Part shown: positions 1,911 through 10,738 of the stretch, in pieces
Position numbering within the stretch: the stretch's first letter is position 1
Layout: every line of letters begins with the position of its first letter
IMG/VR virus record: IMGVR_UViG_3300018080_000138
Location: 32,709-96,708 of that record
DNA from: a virus
Strand: one strand, 5' to 3'
Length of the DNA: 64,000 nt
The notes under the pieces: generated by a model
Database searches by the model: none
Told to the model about the DNA's origin: nothing
The model's input: only the letters and a program-made list of their open reading frames with translations
Position numbers and translations under genes: made by a program

Positions 1911-2496
1911 CATTTTTAGTATAATAGTAGGTATTATCATAGAAAAAGAAATAAAATTTATTGGGATTGATTACTCATTAAGTAAGACAGGATTAGTTAT
2001 ACTGTGTCCGGATGGTAGATATGAGGCATCTTTGATTAAAGTTACTGGAAAAGGTATTAAAAGGACTAAGGATTTGGCCGATACTATAGTTGATACTTGT
2101 GGTGAAAGGAATATTATTATGATTGAAGATGTTTTTGCCGGTAGGAGTCCTGGTAATGCCATGAAGATTGCTAAAGGATGGGGAATGATTGTATGTAGTT
2201 TAATAAATAATGGTAATACAGTAATTTCTATGCCACCAAGTAGGTTAAGGTCATTTATACATAAAGGAAACCTTGGAAAATGGAAAGAATATATCCCAAG
2301 GGTTAGAAAGCAGTGGAATGTTGATGAGTATCAAGAAGATATTGTTGCTGCCTATGCATTGGCAAGGGCCGCAATGCTTTGGGAAATTAATAGGGTAAGA
2401 CCTACTGCAATAAAGTTAATTTCCAAAGGATTATCAAAGAAATTTACACCTCAGCAGGTATTAGTAATAAAAAGGCAATTTGATTTATATGAGTAA
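1900..2496 (+). CDS. RuvC-like RNase H-fold nuclease (Holliday junction resolvase)
   Basis: The core begins FIGIDYSLSKTGL, the RuvC/RNase H first-strand motif with a catalytic Asp. It continues with IIMIEDVFAG (catalytic Glu) and DEYQEDIVAAYALA (late acidic pair on a helix), as in RuvC and related phage resolvases. It would cut branched DNA during recombination or before packaging. The only standard start upstream of the first motif is TTG at 1900, inside the terminator's T-rich arm, and the first 15 or so residues it adds (VFFIFSIIVG) look non-native. Initiation at an ATT or ATA codon around 1933-1939 is possible. The end overlaps recA by 8 bases. Confidence 0.75.
   Translation: MVFFIFSIIVGIIIEKEIKFIGIDYSLSKTGLVILCPDGRYEASLIKVTGKGIKRTKDLADTIVDTCGERNIIMIEDVFAGRSPGNAMKIAKGWGMIVCSLINNGNTVISMPPSRLRSFIHKGNLGKWKEYIPRVRKQWNVDEYQEDIVAAYALARAAMLWEINRVRPTAIKLISKGLSKKFTPQQVLVIKRQFDLYE
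1920..1925 (+). promoter_or_regulatory. Possible -10 box (TATAAT) before the ruvC-like gene
   Basis: A perfect TATAAT lies directly behind the terminator and would restart transcription for the recombination operon at about 1931-1933. I see no convincing -35 box because the upstream bases belong to the terminator stem and T run. The support is position and hexamer identity only. Confidence 0.35.
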
Positions 2497-3397
2497 AAAG
2501 AAGAATAGTGTTGGGAAGGTAGAACTTGATCAATGTATTTCATTTTTAGAGAATAAACTTTATCCAAATATTATCCAAGGGTTAACTGATGACATGGTCG
2601 AGGTTTATGATGTATGGAAAACAGGTTTACCTACTTTTAACTCAATCTCAGGAATTGGTGGTTTACCGAAGGGTAGACTTATTGAGATATTTGGTTCAGA
2701 AGGTGTTGGAAAATCATCACTTGCATTAAAATTTATAAAGGTTGTACAACAAGCTGGTGGTGTTGCGTTATACCTTGATTATGAGCATAGTTTTTCTACG
2801 AGATATGCAAGGATAAATGGTGTATCTTGTACAAAGGATAAATTTTTATTTTCTCAACCGGAATGCCTTGAAGATGGTTGGGACATTATAGATGCACTTA
2901 TTACTAATAATTTAGTTGATTTAATTGTCTTAGATAGTCTTGCGTCGGCACCAACAAGGGCAGAAGTAGAGGGTGATATTGGTGACTCACAAATTGCTGT
3001 CCATGCAAGAGCAGTATCTCATGCACTTCGAAAATTAACATCGAAATTAGGTAAATCAAATACAACGTTGATTTTTATAAATCAGATAAGATCAAAAATA
3101 CAGACAATGGGATATGGTAGAAAAGAAACAACTCCTGGTGGAAAGTCTGTAAAATTTTATGCATCTATGCGGTTTAGGATGGTAAGAACGAAGGGAATTA
3201 GAAGGAATATAAATATTGATGGGTTATCACAAAAAATTGAAGTAGTTAGTGAGATTAAAGTGATTGCTGCAAAAAATAAAATGGCACCTCCATTTAAGGA
3301 AGGTTATTTATATCTTGTACATGGTGCTGGAGTTTTTGAGAAGGTATCTGTTGATAAAGTATTAAAAGAATTGAAGAGAAGAGAAAATGTTAAATAG
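2489..3397 (+). CDS. recA: RecA recombinase
   Basis: RecA-type ATPase that forms filaments on ssDNA and drives strand exchange. Walker A is GSEGVGKSS (about residues 69-77) and Walker B is LVDLIVLDSLAS, followed by the VEGDIGDSQIAVHARAVS segment. The FINQIRSKI and TPGGKSVKFYASMRFRM blocks are diagnostic of RecA. At 302 residues it is a little short because it lacks most of the bacterial C-terminal domain. I chose the ATG at 2489 over the upstream TTG because MSKKKN is a natural start and sits in a tight overlap with the ruvC-like stop. It is the first clear gene of a recombination and replication operon. Confidence 0.95.
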   Translation: MSKKKNSVGKVELDQCISFLENKLYPNIIQGLTDDMVEVYDVWKTGLPTFNSISGIGGLPKGRLIEIFGSEGVGKSSLALKFIKVVQQAGGVALYLDYEHSFSTRYARINGVSCTKDKFLFSQPECLEDGWDIIDALITNNLVDLIVLDSLASAPTRAEVEGDIGDSQIAVHARAVSHALRKLTSKLGKSNTTLIFINQIRSKIQTMGYGRKETTPGGKSVKFYASMRFRMVRTKGIRRNINIDGLSQKIEVVSEIKVIAAKNKMAPPFKEGYLYLVHGAGVFEKVSVDKVLKELKRRENVK

Positions 3398-4364
3398 AGT
3401 AGTAATCAAAAATTTTCAGAGTTTAGAGCATATCGAGTTTGTACTTGGTAATATTACAGTAATTACCGGCGAGACTGACCATGGTAAGTCAGCAATTATT
3501 CGTGCAATTGATATGTGTAGTTCAGGAAGATTAGTAGGTGAGCATGTTACATTTGATAAAGAATTCTCTGAGACTCACTTGTTTTTTGATGATATTTCTA
3601 TAAGTTGTGTGAAAGGTAAAAGGATAAATTCTTATATAGTTGGTAGTAAAAAGTATAGTTCTGTTGGTCGTACATTACCAGTAGAAGTAATAAATGGACT
3701 AAACATGAAACCTATAAGTGGAATTAAAAAAGAAGTGTATTTTCCTCATATAGCTACTCAAAAACAATCACCTTTTATACTTTCTACATCTTCATCCGCT
3801 GCTAATAGAATAATAGGCAATTTGACTGGTATTGATGTTTTAACCAATGCTACTTATGATAATCAGAGTGAGATCTTGAAGCTTAAAAGAAAAAGAAGAT
3901 TTCATTTGGAAGAGGTACAGAGGTTAAAACAAGAGTATGATCCAAAAAAATTTTTAGTATTAAAGAAATTATTATTAAAAGTTCGTAAGTTAGAGGATAG
4001 TTATATAAAAGCCATTAAAAAGCGGTCTGTATTGTTGGAAAAGGAAAAGTTGACTAAACATGTTAAGAGTATTAGATGTAAATTGCAAAGTTTAAAGAAA
4101 CAATTGGCAATAGTTAATAAATTACCAAATGTTGATAATAAAATTAATGAGATAAGTGCAAAGAATGATGAGTGTGTATTGGTAGAAAATATTTTTAAGA
4201 GATTGTCTTTAGCTGAAGAAAATCTTAGTAAAATAAATAAATCCTTTAAGCAAGCATTAAAGGATTTAAAAGTTAAGTTGGATGGTTTAAAAGTTTGCCC
4301 ATTTTGCCTGTCAAGTATAGATACTAAGAAGATAAACAAAATTGTAAGGGAATTAATAAGATGA
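3387..4364 (+). CDS. sbcC: Rad50/SbcC N-terminal half with zinc hook
   Basis: This is the first half of an SMC-type Rad50/SbcC ATPase. It starts RVVIKNFQSLEHIEF, has Walker A GETDHGKSA (28-36), continues as a coiled coil (about 165-300) and ends 19 residues after CPFC, the zinc-hook motif at about 304-307. There is no signature motif, Walker B or second coil. Those occur in the separate gene at 6563-7180. Whole SbcC/Rad50 proteins run from about 600 to more than 1000 residues. Here the break falls at the hook, the one place where the two coil arms could be separated without removing a folded part. It overlaps recA by 11 bases and the Mre11-like gene by 4. Confidence 0.88.
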   Translation: MLNRVVIKNFQSLEHIEFVLGNITVITGETDHGKSAIIRAIDMCSSGRLVGEHVTFDKEFSETHLFFDDISISCVKGKRINSYIVGSKKYSSVGRTLPVEVINGLNMKPISGIKKEVYFPHIATQKQSPFILSTSSSAANRIIGNLTGIDVLTNATYDNQSEILKLKRKRRFHLEEVQRLKQEYDPKKFLVLKKLLLKVRKLEDSYIKAIKKRSVLLEKEKLTKHVKSIRCKLQSLKKQLAIVNKLPNVDNKINEISAKNDECVLVENIFKRLSLAEENLSKINKSFKQALKDLKVKLDGLKVCPFCLSSIDTKKINKIVRELIR

Positions 4365-5284
4365 TACTTATGTTTATAAATGATATACACCTTACATTGA
4401 CATCACCTGCAAAAAGGAAGCAAACATATTTTAAAGAAATTTGTGCGAAGTTAGAAGAAATAAAGGAGGTTGCAGAAAGAATTGGTAGTACTGCGATAGT
4501 ATTAACAGGTGATATTTTTCATAGGAGAAATGAGGATTACCTTACATTAAATTGGTTTTTGAATTGGATAAAAGAATGCCCATGTCCTGTTCATGCAGTT
4601 ATTGGAAATCATGATTATGTAGGTAATTTGGCAAATATTAGGTATAAACCAATGGGATCATTAATATGGTCGGGATTGTGTAATGTGAATAACGCATTTA
4701 TTGAAAGTGAGAATACTTCATGCATGTTATTTAAAAAGCATTGGAAGTATTCTAATGATGTAGAATACTATAAGGTTAAGAAAAGTTCTGCAAGGTATAA
4801 TATACTCGCAACACATGCACCATTTATTCCTGATGGTGTAAAGGGATTTGGAACAGTATTTAAGTATTCACAGATAAAGATGACCGTCGACTATATTTTT
4901 CATGGGCATCACCATAATGATTATGGTATTCAAGCAGTTAATGGAATACGATTTGTTAATCTTGGTGCATTATCAAGAGGATCGTTGGTTGAGAGAGATT
5001 TAAAGCGAGAAATAAAGATCCCAATTCTTTATTTAGGAAATAAGGCTACGGTAAAACAGTATAAGTTAAAAAATGTTTTACCAATTCACGAGGTCATATC
5101 TTCATCTGAGGAACAGTTATATGATATTGAGCGGTTGGATAAAGAAAAGGTAGATTTGTTTTTAAGTGAAGTTGGTATGACAAGAAAGGATACAATAGAT
5201 TTTTCTTGGGTATATGAAGATGTAGGTGACCCTGTTAAAACGTGTGTTAAGAATTATATAGAAAGACATATTTATGGACATTGA
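4361..5284 (+). CDS. sbcD: Mre11/SbcD-like DNA double-strand-break nuclease
   Basis: A calcineurin-like phosphoesterase with all five metal motifs in order: FINDIHLT (D8, H10), LTGDIFHRR, VIGNHDYVG, LATHAPFIPDG and FHGHHHNDYG. This is the Mre11/SbcD signature. The protein would resect or open DNA ends together with Rad50. At 307 residues it covers the nuclease core and a short C-terminal region. It lies directly between the two rad50 half-genes and overlaps the first by 4 bases, so the complex is probably translated stoichiometrically. Confidence 0.92.
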   Translation: MILMFINDIHLTLTSPAKRKQTYFKEICAKLEEIKEVAERIGSTAIVLTGDIFHRRNEDYLTLNWFLNWIKECPCPVHAVIGNHDYVGNLANIRYKPMGSLIWSGLCNVNNAFIESENTSCMLFKKHWKYSNDVEYYKVKKSSARYNILATHAPFIPDGVKGFGTVFKYSQIKMTVDYIFHGHHHNDYGIQAVNGIRFVNLGALSRGSLVERDLKREIKIPILYLGNKATVKQYKLKNVLPIHEVISSSEEQLYDIERLDKEKVDLFLSEVGMTRKDTIDFSWVYEDVGDPVKTCVKNYIERHIYGH

Positions 5285-5507
5285 TAAACTTAAAAAGAAA
5301 ATTCTTGAAATAAAAACCAGGAAGAATATATTAGAAACTAAGATAGAAACTTTGGCCGTTGAACTACAAGCATTGCAGGAAAAGACAGGATTAATTAGTA
5401 CTGATGATATAGCAGCTCAGATTAAGCAGAATAACAATGAGATTAGAACAATAATATCGGTTGCTGATAAAATTTTATTAAAGGTAAAAGAAAACGATGG
5501 AATTTAA
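5274..5507 (+). CDS. Small coiled-coil protein between Mre11 and clamp
   Basis: A 77-residue, highly charged protein. Heptad-like Leu/Ile spacing from residue 4 to 40 indicates a coiled coil, and a second helix follows. I find no family. It overlaps the Mre11 gene by 11 bases and the clamp gene by 11. Because it lies between the two halves of a split Rad50, it could be a stray piece of coil or a partner of the split complex; that is inference from position only. Confidence 0.65.
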   Translation: MDIDKLKKKILEIKTRKNILETKIETLAVELQALQEKTGLISTDDIAAQIKQNNNEIRTIISVADKILLKVKENDGI

Positions 5508-6573
5508 AATACATAGCCAGATATTGAGTAGTATAGTAAAAAAATTTAGTCCAATATTGGCAAGTAAGGGCATGATAGAAGGACATGGGAATATTTTTTT
5601 AAATGCAAAAGGTAATAAGTTGCAGGTATTTGGAGAGAATACTTCAGTTGGGTTACTATTAAATGAATGTGATGTATCAATTATTAAAGATGGTAAAGTA
5701 GTAATAGATTTTTTAGTATTAAAAGAAATTTCAAGTCATACAAAAGATAATGTATTATTTAAAACTTCTGATAAGTTAGAAATAGTAAATAAAAGTACAA
5801 AATGGAAATTTGAGTTATTACAACAAAAATCTAAATTTCCTGGATTCCCAAAAAATAATACGAATAAAGTTGTACTAAAAACGAATGAACTTAATATTGC
5901 AATTAATCATACTTCGTATTCTGTTTGTAAAGATATGGCAAGGGTTGAGTTAAATCAGCTTGCGACATCTTCGGGATATTTGGTTGGGACAGATGGTATT
6001 AGATGTAGTATGTATAAAACAAAACTTGATTTAGCCATTCCTGAGGTTGCTATACAGTCATTGGTAACTTTATTAGACATTTTTGATGATAAAGACGTTT
6101 CTATCATAAGCTCTAAAAGTCATACATATTTTCTTTTTCCGTCTAATGTGTATTATTTTAGGAAGTATAATGCAAATTTTCCTGATATAAAGGAATCCGT
6201 ACTTAATTTAGTAAAAGATTATGACATGTATATCGAAGTAAATAGAGAACGTTTTATTGATACACTTGGTAGAATTGATATAGCAATTTATAAGGATCCT
6301 ACAACACCAGTTGATATTATTGTGTCCAATGGTAAACATTTAATAGTAAAAAGTGTAAGTAATACTGTGAAAAGTGTTGCTAAGATACCTGTAAGATTAG
6401 AAGGAATTAGTATTAATATTCGTGTTCGTTTAAAACATCTTACCGACGCATTAAATAAGTTATCGTCTAAGAATGTGAAGATATTTTATGCGGGATCTTC
6501 TAAACCTTTGTATATAAAGGCCGATAAGTATAAGATAGTAATTTTACCAATGGAAAAGGAAGATGAGAAATAG
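5497..6573 (+). CDS. dnaN: DNA polymerase sliding clamp (beta-clamp, DnaN-like)
   Basis: The 358-residue length fits bacterial DnaN (about 366) rather than T4 gp45 (about 228). Recognisable landmarks are GYLVGTDGIRCSMYK in the middle domain and a C-terminal KLSSKNVKIFYAGSSKPLYI followed by KIVILPM, matching the DnaN ending that closes near MPM. It would ring DNA and tether a polymerase. The DnaX-type loader two genes downstream is its expected partner. It overlaps both neighbours by 11 bases. Confidence 0.88.
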   Translation: MEFKIHSQILSSIVKKFSPILASKGMIEGHGNIFLNAKGNKLQVFGENTSVGLLLNECDVSIIKDGKVVIDFLVLKEISSHTKDNVLFKTSDKLEIVNKSTKWKFELLQQKSKFPGFPKNNTNKVVLKTNELNIAINHTSYSVCKDMARVELNQLATSSGYLVGTDGIRCSMYKTKLDLAIPEVAIQSLVTLLDIFDDKDVSIISSKSHTYFLFPSNVYYFRKYNANFPDIKESVLNLVKDYDMYIEVNRERFIDTLGRIDIAIYKDPTTPVDIIVSNGKHLIVKSVSNTVKSVAKIPVRLEGISINIRVRLKHLTDALNKLSSKNVKIFYAGSSKPLYIKADKYKIVILPMEKEDEK

Positions 6574-7180
6574 ATTAAAACATTCTATTGAGAGAATAGA
6601 AAAACAATTAAATATGTATAATAGTATGAGAATGAGTATTAAATATCATGAAGTTGAGTTAGAAAAAATTAACTCAGAATTATTGATTCAAGAAAAGAGT
6701 TTTTCCGTACTAAAGAAGGCACAAGAGGGAGTTACGGATATCCATAGTAGGCTTGAGGCAATGCAGTCGTATGCCTTAAGTTATATTTTAGAGCAGAATG
6801 TAAAATTTTCTTTTAACTTTTCTTCTGCAAAGTCTGGTTCAATGAGGTTTAAATTGTCATTGGATAATTCTAAACAGAAGACAGATATCTGTGGGTCAAG
6901 GGGTGGCGGTGTTGAAGACATAATGAGTTTTTTGTTTCGTGTGATTTGTGTATTAACACGAAAACAACGAAAATTTATAGCATTAGATGAACCATTTACT
7001 GCGATATCACAGAATAAATTTGAACGTTTGATGGAATTTATTGCCATGATAGTAAAAAAAACAGGTTTACAGCTTTTAATTGTTACACATAAAAAACAAT
7101 TATTAGACATAGCCGATGTTAAGTATAAGGTAAATCTTATAGATGGGAGTACTAAAATAAAAAGGTTAAAAAATGGTTAA
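6563..7180 (+). CDS. sbcC: Rad50/SbcC C-terminal half
   Basis: This is the missing second half of the Rad50-type ATPase. Residues 1-75 form the returning coiled coil. Then come the ABC signature (GSRGGGVEDIMSF, 111-123), Walker B (KFIALDEPF, 137-145) and the H-loop (LLIVTHK, 171-177). It has no Walker A, which is on the protein encoded at 3387-4364. Two copies of each half would be needed to form the two composite ATP sites of a normal Rad50 dimer. The halves are separated by the Mre11, coiled-coil and clamp genes, so this is not a simple frameshift. Confidence 0.88.
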   Translation: MRNRLKHSIERIEKQLNMYNSMRMSIKYHEVELEKINSELLIQEKSFSVLKKAQEGVTDIHSRLEAMQSYALSYILEQNVKFSFNFSSAKSGSMRFKLSLDNSKQKTDICGSRGGGVEDIMSFLFRVICVLTRKQRKFIALDEPFTAISQNKFERLMEFIAMIVKKTGLQLLIVTHKKQLLDIADVKYKVNLIDGSTKIKRLKNG

Positions 7181-8294
7181 TCTTGCAATAAAGTACAGAC
7201 CGGTAACATTTGATAAAGTAATTGGACAAGAAGTAACTGTAAAAATACTTAAAAATATGGTAAAAACAAAGGACATATGCTTATCCTATGTATTTTCTGG
7301 ATCGTTTGGTACTGGAAAGACAACGTTAGCACGTATTTTTTCACGGGCTATAAATTGTGAGAATAAAGAATTTGGGTATAATCCCTGTAATAAATGCCAT
7401 ACATGTAAAAGTATTAGTTCAGATACTGCAATGGATGTTGTAGAAATGGATGCAGCATCCAATGGTCTTGTTAATGATATTAGAAATTTATCAGAGGCCG
7501 CAAAGTATAAACCAATTATTAATTATAAGGTTTTTATACTTGATGAAGCACATAGTATAAGTAATACGGCATTTCAGGTGTTTTTAAAGATGCTTGAGGT
7601 ACAGGGAAAAGCCGTATTTATTTTTTGTACAACAAGAAAAGATAAGATTCCTGAGACAATTTTATCAAGAAGTAGTGTTCATGATTTTTACCCTGTATCT
7701 GATGTGGATATTTTTTCTTTACTTAAAGATATAGCAGGTAAAGAAAATTTAAAATATGATGAGAAGGCATTGAAAATTATAAGTAAGTTGTCAGATGGAT
7801 CAGTCAGAAATGCATTGACTGTATTGAGTGATTTATCAACAATTGAAATAAGTGTGGCAAATACAGTAAAGTTATATGGATTGGTAACTAATAAATATTC
7901 TGATAGTATTTTTGAGTATTTATTCTCAGGAAGTGTAAACAATGCACTTAGATTGACTGTAAATGAGATAAATAAAGGAAGTGACATTAAAAATATGATT
8001 AAGTCGTTATCAAACACGTTACTTGATATTGTAAGTGCAAAATATAAGTGTTACCAGAGAATAAACGGATCATTAGAAAGAAAGAAAAGAATCTCAAAGT
8101 TAGCCCTAAAATTAAAAAATGGTATACCTTCTAAGTTATTTACGGAATTTTGTAATGCTGATTTTAATCTTCGTTCATTAATCCCAAGTAATATAACTAT
8201 GTTATTATTAATTTCATCAATGGCAGAAGTAATTGGAGTTGAGCAGAGAAATATATTGGATGTTTCTGATATTGAGAGGTTAATAAATGAGTGA
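7173..8294 (+). CDS. dnaX: DnaX-like clamp loader ATPase
   Basis: Bacterial gamma/tau-type clamp loader. It starts AIKYRPVTFDKVIGQE and has Walker A GSFGTGKTT (43-51). The four-Cys zinc module of DnaX follows (INC...CNKCHTC), then VEMDAASN, Walker B VFILDEAH, and SRSS carrying the arginine-finger/sensor position. The C-terminal collar domain runs to residue 373. No tau-like extension is present. It would load the DnaN-like clamp. DnaX-type loaders are not the usual T4 gp44/62 arrangement, so the phage appears to carry a bacterial-style clamp system. Confidence 0.93.
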   Translation: MVNLAIKYRPVTFDKVIGQEVTVKILKNMVKTKDICLSYVFSGSFGTGKTTLARIFSRAINCENKEFGYNPCNKCHTCKSISSDTAMDVVEMDAASNGLVNDIRNLSEAAKYKPIINYKVFILDEAHSISNTAFQVFLKMLEVQGKAVFIFCTTRKDKIPETILSRSSVHDFYPVSDVDIFSLLKDIAGKENLKYDEKALKIISKLSDGSVRNALTVLSDLSTIEISVANTVKLYGLVTNKYSDSIFEYLFSGSVNNALRLTVNEINKGSDIKNMIKSLSNTLLDIVSAKYKCYQRINGSLERKKRISKLALKLKNGIPSKLFTEFCNADFNLRSLIPSNITMLLLISSMAEVIGVEQRNILDVSDIERLINE

Positions 8295-8826
8295 TATAAT
8301 AAAAAGAAATGAACTTATTTTAGCAATGATCCCAAAAGGTAGAGGGATGGTAGCAAAGTCAGAATATTTTAAGAAAATAATTAAGTTTTTTCTTCAAGGT
8401 TATAGCCCTGAGGTGATAGCCAGAATACTTCGTTTAAAACATGGAAGTAAGATTACAGCCGATTCTATAAGAAAGTATGTAAAGAGATATATTGATCCAA
8501 AGTTATTAAAATATCATTTAATTCTAAGAAACAAACTGAGAAAAAACTCAGTATATGTCGCAATAGAAGAGTTGTCTGCAATACAAGAGAATAGATTGTA
8601 TAATTTACTTAGACTTGAGAAAAAAAGTAAGGACAAATATATATCTGACGCAAGGTTTGAGATAGGTACACTGTTAAATCTTTATAAAGCATTAAATTCA
8701 ATGGACGTTATTGTTACTGAGGATGAGATTACTGCTAAGCAAGATTTAAGTTTTTCAAGTGATGGTGTTAGAGTTGATAAGGTAGTATCTCTTGCTAAAA
8801 GGATAAAACAAATAAGAGGTTATTAG
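8287..8826 (+). CDS. terS: Probable small terminase subunit (HTH protein)
   Basis: A 179-residue, mostly helical basic protein with a helix-turn-helix-like segment (GYSPEVIARILR to TADSIRKYVKR, about 38-66) and a long helical middle. Its stop codon overlaps the GTG start of the terminase ATPase gene. A DNA-binding HTH plus an oligomerising helical region directly upstream of the large terminase is the classic small-terminase arrangement. The assignment rests on position and this weak domain evidence, not on a specific family match. Confidence 0.55.
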   Translation: MSDIIKRNELILAMIPKGRGMVAKSEYFKKIIKFFLQGYSPEVIARILRLKHGSKITADSIRKYVKRYIDPKLLKYHLILRNKLRKNSVYVAIEELSAIQENRLYNLLRLEKKSKDKYISDARFEIGTLLNLYKALNSMDVIVTEDEITAKQDLSFSSDGVRVDKVVSLAKRIKQIRGY

Positions 8827-9992
8827 TGAGTGTTAGACGTGAGGTAGAAAATCTTACTGATTCTGAGAAACAACTATTGAGAAAGATGTTGGATGATGAG
8901 ATTTTTTATAAGGAAGTAATAGATAATATTTATATTTGTGATAAGGTGGGAATTCAGCAATTTATTGAAGATGAAAATTATCTTGGAAGTGGTGATGAGA
9001 TTTGGCCGGCAATAAAAAACGATCTTATTAAGATATATGAGTTGGGGGTTCGAGAAGCATTTATGGTGGAGGGTATAGGTGCTGGTAAATCAACAAAGAC
9101 GGCTCTTGCGTTGTGTTATGAGTTATTTAAATTAGGGAGGTTAAAAAATCCACAAAGATACTATGGTTTACGTTCAAAAACAAAAATTGCTGTTATTAAT
9201 ATGTCAATTAGAGCAACACAGGCAAAGGATGTGTTGTTTGATGATATCCAAAGTTTAATAGGAATGTCACCTTGGTTTAATAAATTTTTTAAGCCAGATC
9301 AGAAAGTCCATTCAAAACTTAAATTTCCTAATAATATTTTTGCTATTCCTGGAAATTCACAGGAATCACTTCCAATAGGATTTACGTTAAAAGCCGCAGC
9401 ATTGGATGAAGCGGCACATTTTATGACTAAATTTCATATTGGTGATGATATGGATCAAAGTAGAAATGTTTACCTTTCATTATTGAAGAGATTAAGATCA
9501 AGATTTATGGATTATTTATTAATTGTTTGTACATCTCCGAGATTGGTAGAAGATTTGACTGAGAAGATGAGGGAAAAAGCACTAAAATCCAATGGTGACA
9601 TGTTTTGGATAAGAAGACCACTATGGAAAGCAAAACCAAAAGGATATTATGCAAATGATTATTTTGTCTATGATGAGAGGCATCAAAAAATAATTGGTTC
9701 GGCAAAGGATGTTATTGAGTGTGTGTTTGGTAAAATAGATGGATTTGAGAAACTATGTCTTGAGGAGGTTCAGTACTTGGTTAATTTAATGTATAATTAT
9801 AAGCCTGAAGCGGTTAGTGATTATGTTATTGACGAGACATTGGAGGTAGTAGACCCTGGATTAGGAATAACAAGGGCCGATGCTGATCTAAGTGTTGTTA
9901 ATATTCTTGATAGTATTAGTAACCTTGAGAAAGATGATGAGTTCGATTCTATTGAAGATATTTCCGAGAGCGCTGAGGTGCTCACTATATGA
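8826..9992 (+). CDS. terL: Terminase large subunit, ATPase part
   Basis: This is the motor half of the DNA-packaging terminase. Walker A is VEGIGAGKST (81-90), Walker B is LKAAALDEAAHF with catalytic D194/E195, and the coupling motif is LLIVCTSP (about 236-243). It ends in an acidic tail (DDEFDSIEDISESAE) without any nuclease domain. The next gene starts within its TGA stop (ATGA) and carries the nuclease. The start is GTG at 8826, overlapping the stop of the previous gene. Confidence 0.85.
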   Translation: MSVRREVENLTDSEKQLLRKMLDDEIFYKEVIDNIYICDKVGIQQFIEDENYLGSGDEIWPAIKNDLIKIYELGVREAFMVEGIGAGKSTKTALALCYELFKLGRLKNPQRYYGLRSKTKIAVINMSIRATQAKDVLFDDIQSLIGMSPWFNKFFKPDQKVHSKLKFPNNIFAIPGNSQESLPIGFTLKAAALDEAAHFMTKFHIGDDMDQSRNVYLSLLKRLRSRFMDYLLIVCTSPRLVEDLTEKMREKALKSNGDMFWIRRPLWKAKPKGYYANDYFVYDERHQKIIGSAKDVIECVFGKIDGFEKLCLEEVQYLVNLMYNYKPEAVSDYVIDETLEVVDPGLGITRADADLSVVNILDSISNLEKDDEFDSIEDISESAEVLTI

Positions 9993-10738
9993 AAATTGAA
10001 AGTATAAAAATTCATTCAGACTCAATATTAACTGTTATCCCAAGTCATTTCCTTCCAGATTACCAGGAAGATGCTGGTAAGGCACATAGAGATTTTGGTG
10101 CAAAAACACATAGAGAATCAATAAGATTTATAAGAGATGAGTTATTAGTTGATTCTATGTTTGATCAGTCAGTTAGTAGACCAATAACAGATAATCTTGT
10201 ACTTTACCGGTGGTTTTTACCTAAGAAAAATTGTTATTACCATGCGCATATTGATCTTGGGTTTAACCATTGTAGTTGTGGTATTGCACTTGCTCACCAA
10301 GAGGGTTGGGGAACAGTAATTGATTTGGCCGAGTCATTATCGCCTAAGTTATTTGGTGGTGAGATAGATTTTGAAGAAATTAGGCAAATAGTAAAATCTC
10401 TTGTTTTAAGAAGATTTAATGTCACTGTCACATACGACAGTTTTCAGTCATTTGATAGTATACAACAGTTAAGACAAGGTGGGATAATTGCTGATTTATT
10501 TTCAGTAGATAGAGATATGAGAGCATATATTTCGTTGAGAAGAGGGTTATATGAGAAGTCTATCAAATGTTATTTTTCTGAGAAGTTAAGAAATGAGCTT
10601 CTTGGTTTAGTAAGAAGTGGTGATAAAATTGATAAGCCTGTTAATGGTTCAAAGGATCTTTCTGATGCTGTTGCAGCAGCAGTATACCATTGCAGAGAGT
10701 TTTCAAATAGATTAATCACAGAAGGGAAGGTGGTATAA
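9989..10738 (+). CDS. terL: Terminase large subunit, RNase H-fold nuclease part
   Basis: The protein carries the three acidic residues of a TerL nuclease in correct order and spacing: HAHIDLGFNH (D89), VTVTYDSFQSFDS (D150) and NGSKDLSDAVAAAVYH (D226). This domain cuts concatemeric DNA during packaging. It normally follows the ATPase on the same chain. Here it has its own ATG in a 4-base ATGA overlap with the ATPase gene. Residues 1-80, with their own N-terminal segment, may dock on the ATPase. Confidence 0.83.
   Translation: MKIESIKIHSDSILTVIPSHFLPDYQEDAGKAHRDFGAKTHRESIRFIRDELLVDSMFDQSVSRPITDNLVLYRWFLPKKNCYYHAHIDLGFNHCSCGIALAHQEGWGTVIDLAESLSPKLFGGEIDFEEIRQIVKSLVLRRFNVTVTYDSFQSFDSIQQLRQGGIIADLFSVDRDMRAYISLRRGLYEKSIKCYFSEKLRNELLGLVRSGDKIDKPVNGSKDLSDAVAAAVYHCREFSNRLITEGKVV

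Follow-up and report, generated by a model that had tools for sequence, protein, structure and literature searches.

Rad50 genes divided at the zinc hook in a lineage of phages

Rad50/SbcC is a DNA-break-processing machine encoded as one long protein in cells and most phages, and Rad50 and SMC machines are modelled on the basis of one chain that extends to the hook and returns. The closest described systems, SbcC/gp46 and SbcD/gp47 of T4, T5 and SPO1-like phages, resemble the locus described here in their ABC head layout, their coil with a CxxC hook, their Mre11 partner and their siting in the replication-recombination region. Excerpts of a jumbo-phage survey describe SbcC as nearly universal and mention no split (PMC7824862). 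We found no description of a split Rad50/SbcC in the literature searched, which covers few subscription papers and preprints.

Here we analysed a window of 64,000 nucleotides, part of the 96,708-base IMG/VR virus record IMGVR_UViG_3300018080_000138. Its Rad50 homology is divided at the zinc hook between an N-half gene and a C-half gene, and we consider it likely that the locus encodes an Mre11-Rad50 (SbcCD) machine in which separate polypeptides make up Rad50.

Two Rad50 halves in one operon

The halves belong to a set of overlapping, same-strand genes at 2489-8294, which encode UvsX/RecA, the N-half, Mre11, a small protein that we call s, a sliding clamp, the C-half and DnaX:

First gene of the 2489-8294 set, before the N-half, plus strand: UvsX/RecA
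3387-4364, plus strand: Rad50 N-half (325 aa) with Walker A lobe, coil helices and C-terminal CPFC (Pfam AAA_23, E 2e-8; phrog_16465 'exonuclease', 1e-15)
3468-3491, plus strand: Walker A, GETDHGKS, residues 28-35 (conserved in N-half homologues)
4296-4307, plus strand: zinc-hook motif CPFC, residues 304-307 (conserved in N-half homologues)
4361-5284, plus strand: Mre11/SbcD nuclease (Metallophos, 2e-14; phrog_100 SbcD, 9e-7; alignments)
5274-5507, plus strand: s, a 77-aa two-helix coiled-coil protein (conserved family, AF2 helices, neighbourhood, length)
5497-6573, plus strand: beta sliding clamp, between s and the C-half (DNA_pol3_beta_3, 2.5e-9; phrog_947, 2e-30)
6563-7180, plus strand: Rad50 C-half (205 aa), a coil of about 65 aa and the C-lobe (phrog_15167 'ATPase', 3e-17; SbcC family phrog_77, 7e-4, at positions 892-953 of 967; PDB profile)
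6896-6910, plus strand: SRGGG at the signature position, atypical (G114 invariant and G115 >90% conserved in 28 homologues)
6974-6991, plus strand: Walker B, FIALDE (D142 and E143 invariant)
7085-7090, plus strand: H-loop, TH, residues 175-176 (H176 >90% conserved)
7173-8294, plus strand: clamp loader DnaX, directly after the C-half

Neighbouring genes share 4-11 bases, and purine-rich, Shine-Dalgarno-like runs precede several starts, so co-translation of the operon, Rad50 halves included, is likely on sequence grounds. Mre11 keeps its metal-binding residues in alignments (D8, H10, D51, N83, H84, H152, H183 and H185). The clamp is context and not a piece of Rad50. Elsewhere in the window, 452-1120 encodes an HU-like protein that resembles histone H1: its tail is repeated and rich in lysine (KKSEAKSKKQKTKKV...), and its end is acidic. 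A split is apparent in the large terminase as well, with its ATPase part at 8826-9992 (phrog_17415 terminase, 5e-7) and the RNase H-like nuclease motifs HIDLGFNH, TYDSFQSF and DLSDAVA on a separate ORF at 9989-10738.

The N-half holds the Walker A and N-lobe homology to Rad50. Across 46 homologues, G28, G33 and K34 of Walker A and both CPFC cysteines are invariant, as is the Q-loop glutamine at residue 125. A profile of these homologues matched the Rad50 heads 3qf7_A (9e-7) and 3tho_A, plus OLD and RecN, and its final 60 columns matched the first half of the Rad50 zinc-hook domain, ending at CxxC (1l8d_A, 4.6e-6; 6zff_A, 2.8e-6). The AF2 model (pLDDT 83) places helices at 150-183, 186-244 and 263-300 ahead of CPFC, and Foldseek returned P. 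furiosus Rad50 N-chains (chain A) as the top three hits. Given residues 1-183, a structural aligner ranked the heads of RecF, SMC and Rad50 side by side, which means that Rad50 is identified here not by its head fold alone but by the hook and the Mre11 partner.

The hook lies at the very end of the N-half. The stop codon in the window follows CPFC by 18 residues, and all 48 non-redundant IMG/VR N-halves, the window's included, end 3-20 residues past CxxC. A CxxC in the final 25 residues occurs in 48/48 of these proteins versus 0.3% of shuffled sequences and is therefore not a product of chance. A coiled-coil arm with a terminal zinc hook is thus present, as seen in the modelled helices (150-300), the hook-profile match and the 48 N-half ends. 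Additional His or Cys residues beyond CxxC, possibly an extra zinc ligand, occur in 36 of 48 tails (L091-L170); the window's tail has neither. Long-armed N-halves (L008:12992-14356, L004:4980-6434 and L002:5557-6969) have, in the arm, ~45-residue repeats interrupted by prolines; these repeats may fold back on themselves.

Inteins habitually sit in conserved sites of working genes. Two relatives carry Hint/LAGLIDADG inteins inside the N-half Walker A (L135:7900-10143 and L102:4609-6726), which we count as support for a working N-half gene. A further LAGLIDADG match lies inside an Mre11 ORF (L114:10242-12473). We considered split inteins as a means of joining the halves and rejected them: the ends of the window proteins show no intein motif, and the relatives' inteins are inside Walker A.

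The C-half supplies Walker B, the H-loop and C-lobe homology to Rad50. Its profile (28 homologues) matched P. furiosus Rad50 chain B first (3qkr_B, E 1.5e-9; 1ii8_B; 1f2t_B). The canonical ABC signature, LSGG(E/D) or SGG(E/D), is absent; among the 28 homologues this position reads (R/F/Y/K..)GG(G/A/S), with GG kept and both Ser and E/D replaced. The loss of the signature serine across the split family counts against the model. ABC residues apart from the signature are all kept across the two halves (46 N and 28 C homologues). In descent and in most of its motifs the split Rad50 is Rad50-like; it is not a canonical SbcC, because the single chain and the SGG(E/D) signature are both missing.

An earlier note on this DNA had placed Rad50 on these two genes, broken at the hook, with Mre11, a coiled-coil protein and the clamp between them. 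Its coordinates proved exact, and the head and hook profiles, together with the 48 N-half ends, agree with it. Its statement that all ATPase motifs are kept holds for Walker A, the Q-loop, Walker B and the H-loop and fails at the signature. It had also named a full-length SbcC elsewhere in the genome as evidence that would speak against a split; the 96.7-kb record, which may be incomplete, holds one N-lobe match and one C-lobe match in its entirety and hence no full-length Rad50/SbcC.

The small coiled-coil protein s

The AF2 model of s has helices at 3-38 and 43-74 with a break at 39-42, and its family (~77-97 aa) repeats this plan of helix, G-(I/V)-x-P-like turn at the break, and helix. By HMM or by eye, s was detected in nearly every cluster-bearing locus, including L164, L167, L168 and L170. 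The window's s has no significant match in PHROGs, and its relatives and a PDB profile of s gave scattered coiled-coil matches only.

In our view s is probably not a bystander but a third component of Rad50. Full-length phage SbcCs have 278-312 residues after the hook, 217-256 of them between hook and Walker B; a split C-half by itself is 198-239 residues long, and s and C together have 275-319. In the window, helix 1 of s and the final N-half helix are of similar length (36 and 38 residues), and the break of s would fall where the modelled N-half breaks, at 245-262. Summed length, helix length and break position suggest that s is the outer (distal) part of the return strand between the hook and the C-half.

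Alternatively, Rad50 might be strictly two-piece and s an accessory, such as a clamp or Mre11 partner or a UvsY-like mediator, a reading that we find credible if rather doubtful. It draws on position, since s immediately precedes the clamp in about 33 loci, where the clamp occupies the same place as in the window, and on sequence, since profile comparison of s with the return coil of full-length SbcC detected no similarity. The helix-break-helix could also be a free hairpin. The absence of similarity and the break at 39-42 count equally against a three-piece arm, as do long-armed N-halves (hook at 350-486), for which s and C together are not correspondingly longer. However, where s lacks the clamp as a neighbour it usually adjoins N or C, in the order N-s-C (L158, L159 and L164), s-C (L161, L163 and phages Mvi-JY20 and vB_BboS-125) or N-s (phage Tunturi_5). 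Nor were s-like genes detected beside full-length phage SbcC among the small genes between gp47 and gp46, and the lengths fit the missing strand. A three-polypeptide Rad50 in a large phage lineage, composed of N-half with hook, free distal return strand s and C-lobe, strikes us as evenly poised between right and wrong. In its arm nothing would covalently link the hook back to the head, leaving the hook end and the two sides of the arm free to separate and re-form.

Conservation and ancestry of the split

Used directly as queries of an IMG/VR scan, the window's own N- and C-halves found no relatives; an N-half alignment found 116, of which 80 were examined. N-halves occur in dozens of IMG/VR contigs and in five deposited phages, in no case fused to a C-half, and none of the ORFs in 93 loci carries both N and C, that is, both lobes and both coils on a single polypeptide. 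The deposited phages with both halves as separate genes are vB_BboS-125, Tunturi_5, Magritte, LR745208 (485 kb) and Mvi-JY20. The distance between N and C reaches ~108 kb in Tunturi_5 and ~93 kb in Magritte, whose N-half is exceptional in having no CxxC and next to whose halves no s was found. In vB_BboS-125 (NC_048735.1), an unannotated Mre11/SbcD fills an annotation gap beside the split Rad50 (L002:8812-9789; phrog_100, 3e-21).

The order N-Mre11-(nuclease)-s-clamp-C is common to about 31 non-redundant loci, most of them with UvsX upstream and a PD-(D/E)XK (Cas4-like) nuclease between Mre11 and s. An Mre11/SbcD partner is encoded in most loci. Most phrog_77 matches in 30 records that bear the split are to one or other of the two halves, with no full-length SbcC seen among them. 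Cellular versions amount to one strong match on a 3.5-kb MAG contig, the others being short matches in the Walker A region. A tree of joined N- and C-lobes separated 27 split forms from 9 full-length phage SbcCs with branch support of 100/100; it includes some long-branched rows, so branching order within the split clade is unsure. Split Rad50 forms one clade of common ancestry, a trait of a phage lineage. Very divergent phages (about 20% identity) have in common the split point, the CxxC-ended N-half and the gene order. This is an old arrangement that has been conserved, so the gene is not a broken one.

In large records such as G029, G031, G033, G036 and G038, a distance of about 14 to 325 kb separates N from C, with s near C. 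This separation and the altered signature would fit halves that have parted ways, N-CxxC and C serving as separate ATPase-like factors with no joint Rad50 head. We judge this highly improbable: neither half alone has a complete ATP site, all ABC residues except the signature are kept, and 8/8 large records in which a search found C also have N, s and Mre11. Recent gene disruption or an assembly artefact, with one or both halves decaying, would account for a gene in pieces and is exceedingly improbable, as the same split point, catalytic residues and order recur in dozens of independent contigs and five deposited phages and the split forms make up one deep clade.

The earlier note had predicted a working two-piece machine instead of decay and had proposed a search of phage genomes for the same split order, which the IMG/VR loci indeed share. 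Recurrence at such divergence sides with its prediction, as does the retention of both N and C at distances of tens to hundreds of kb. Its count of two pieces includes N and C and misses s, probably the third.

Proposed assembly and comparison with described machines

Our best reading is a Rad50 assembled in trans, with Mre11, from two, probably three, pieces; we infer its assembly and stoichiometry, its ATPase and nuclease activities and the place of s. The N-half would contribute the lobe with Walker A, the coil that leads outwards and the zinc hook at its extreme C-terminus; the C-half would contribute the inner stretch of the coil that leads back, together with the lobe that bears the signature and Walker B. 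In the structures 1f2t/1f2u (1f2u being the ATP-bound form), 1ii8 and 3qkr, the Rad50 head is divided between chain A (N) and chain B (C), which shows that two polypeptides can make up one head; by homology and these crystals, the N and C lobes likely pair in trans to form one ABC head. ATP binding would pair two such heads and Mre11 would sit on the coil base, as in the family. Two N-chains would join through CxxC at their extreme C-termini, to go by the hook match, and s would tentatively bridge hook and C-half.

A lineage without the covalent turn suggests that the turn is not required. The split offers natural, separately expressible parts with which to assign arm roles (tethering, DNA entry and head gating). 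It also gives meaning to the vaguely named families phrog_15167 'ATPase' and phrog_16465 'exonuclease' and to the orphan family s.

Among known systems, the P. furiosus crystals (1f2t, 1f2u, 1ii8 and 3qkr) likewise have a head made from N and C chains; they are a man-made truncation without a hook, whereas the phage split is natural and bears the hook on its N chain. Fusions of Mre11 and Rad50 exist, for example Mimivirus R555, another unusual viral gene architecture of the same machine that differs in being a fusion and not a fission (PMC3175470). Jumbo phages have a split DNA polymerase III and a multi-piece RNA polymerase, according to excerpts of the survey (PMC7824862), and these are likewise conserved phage machines from split genes, albeit other enzymes. 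Phage SbcC/gp46 itself is one polypeptide of about 570-637 aa with a mid-protein hook, whereas the split Rad50 is encoded in separate genes and forms a clade apart.
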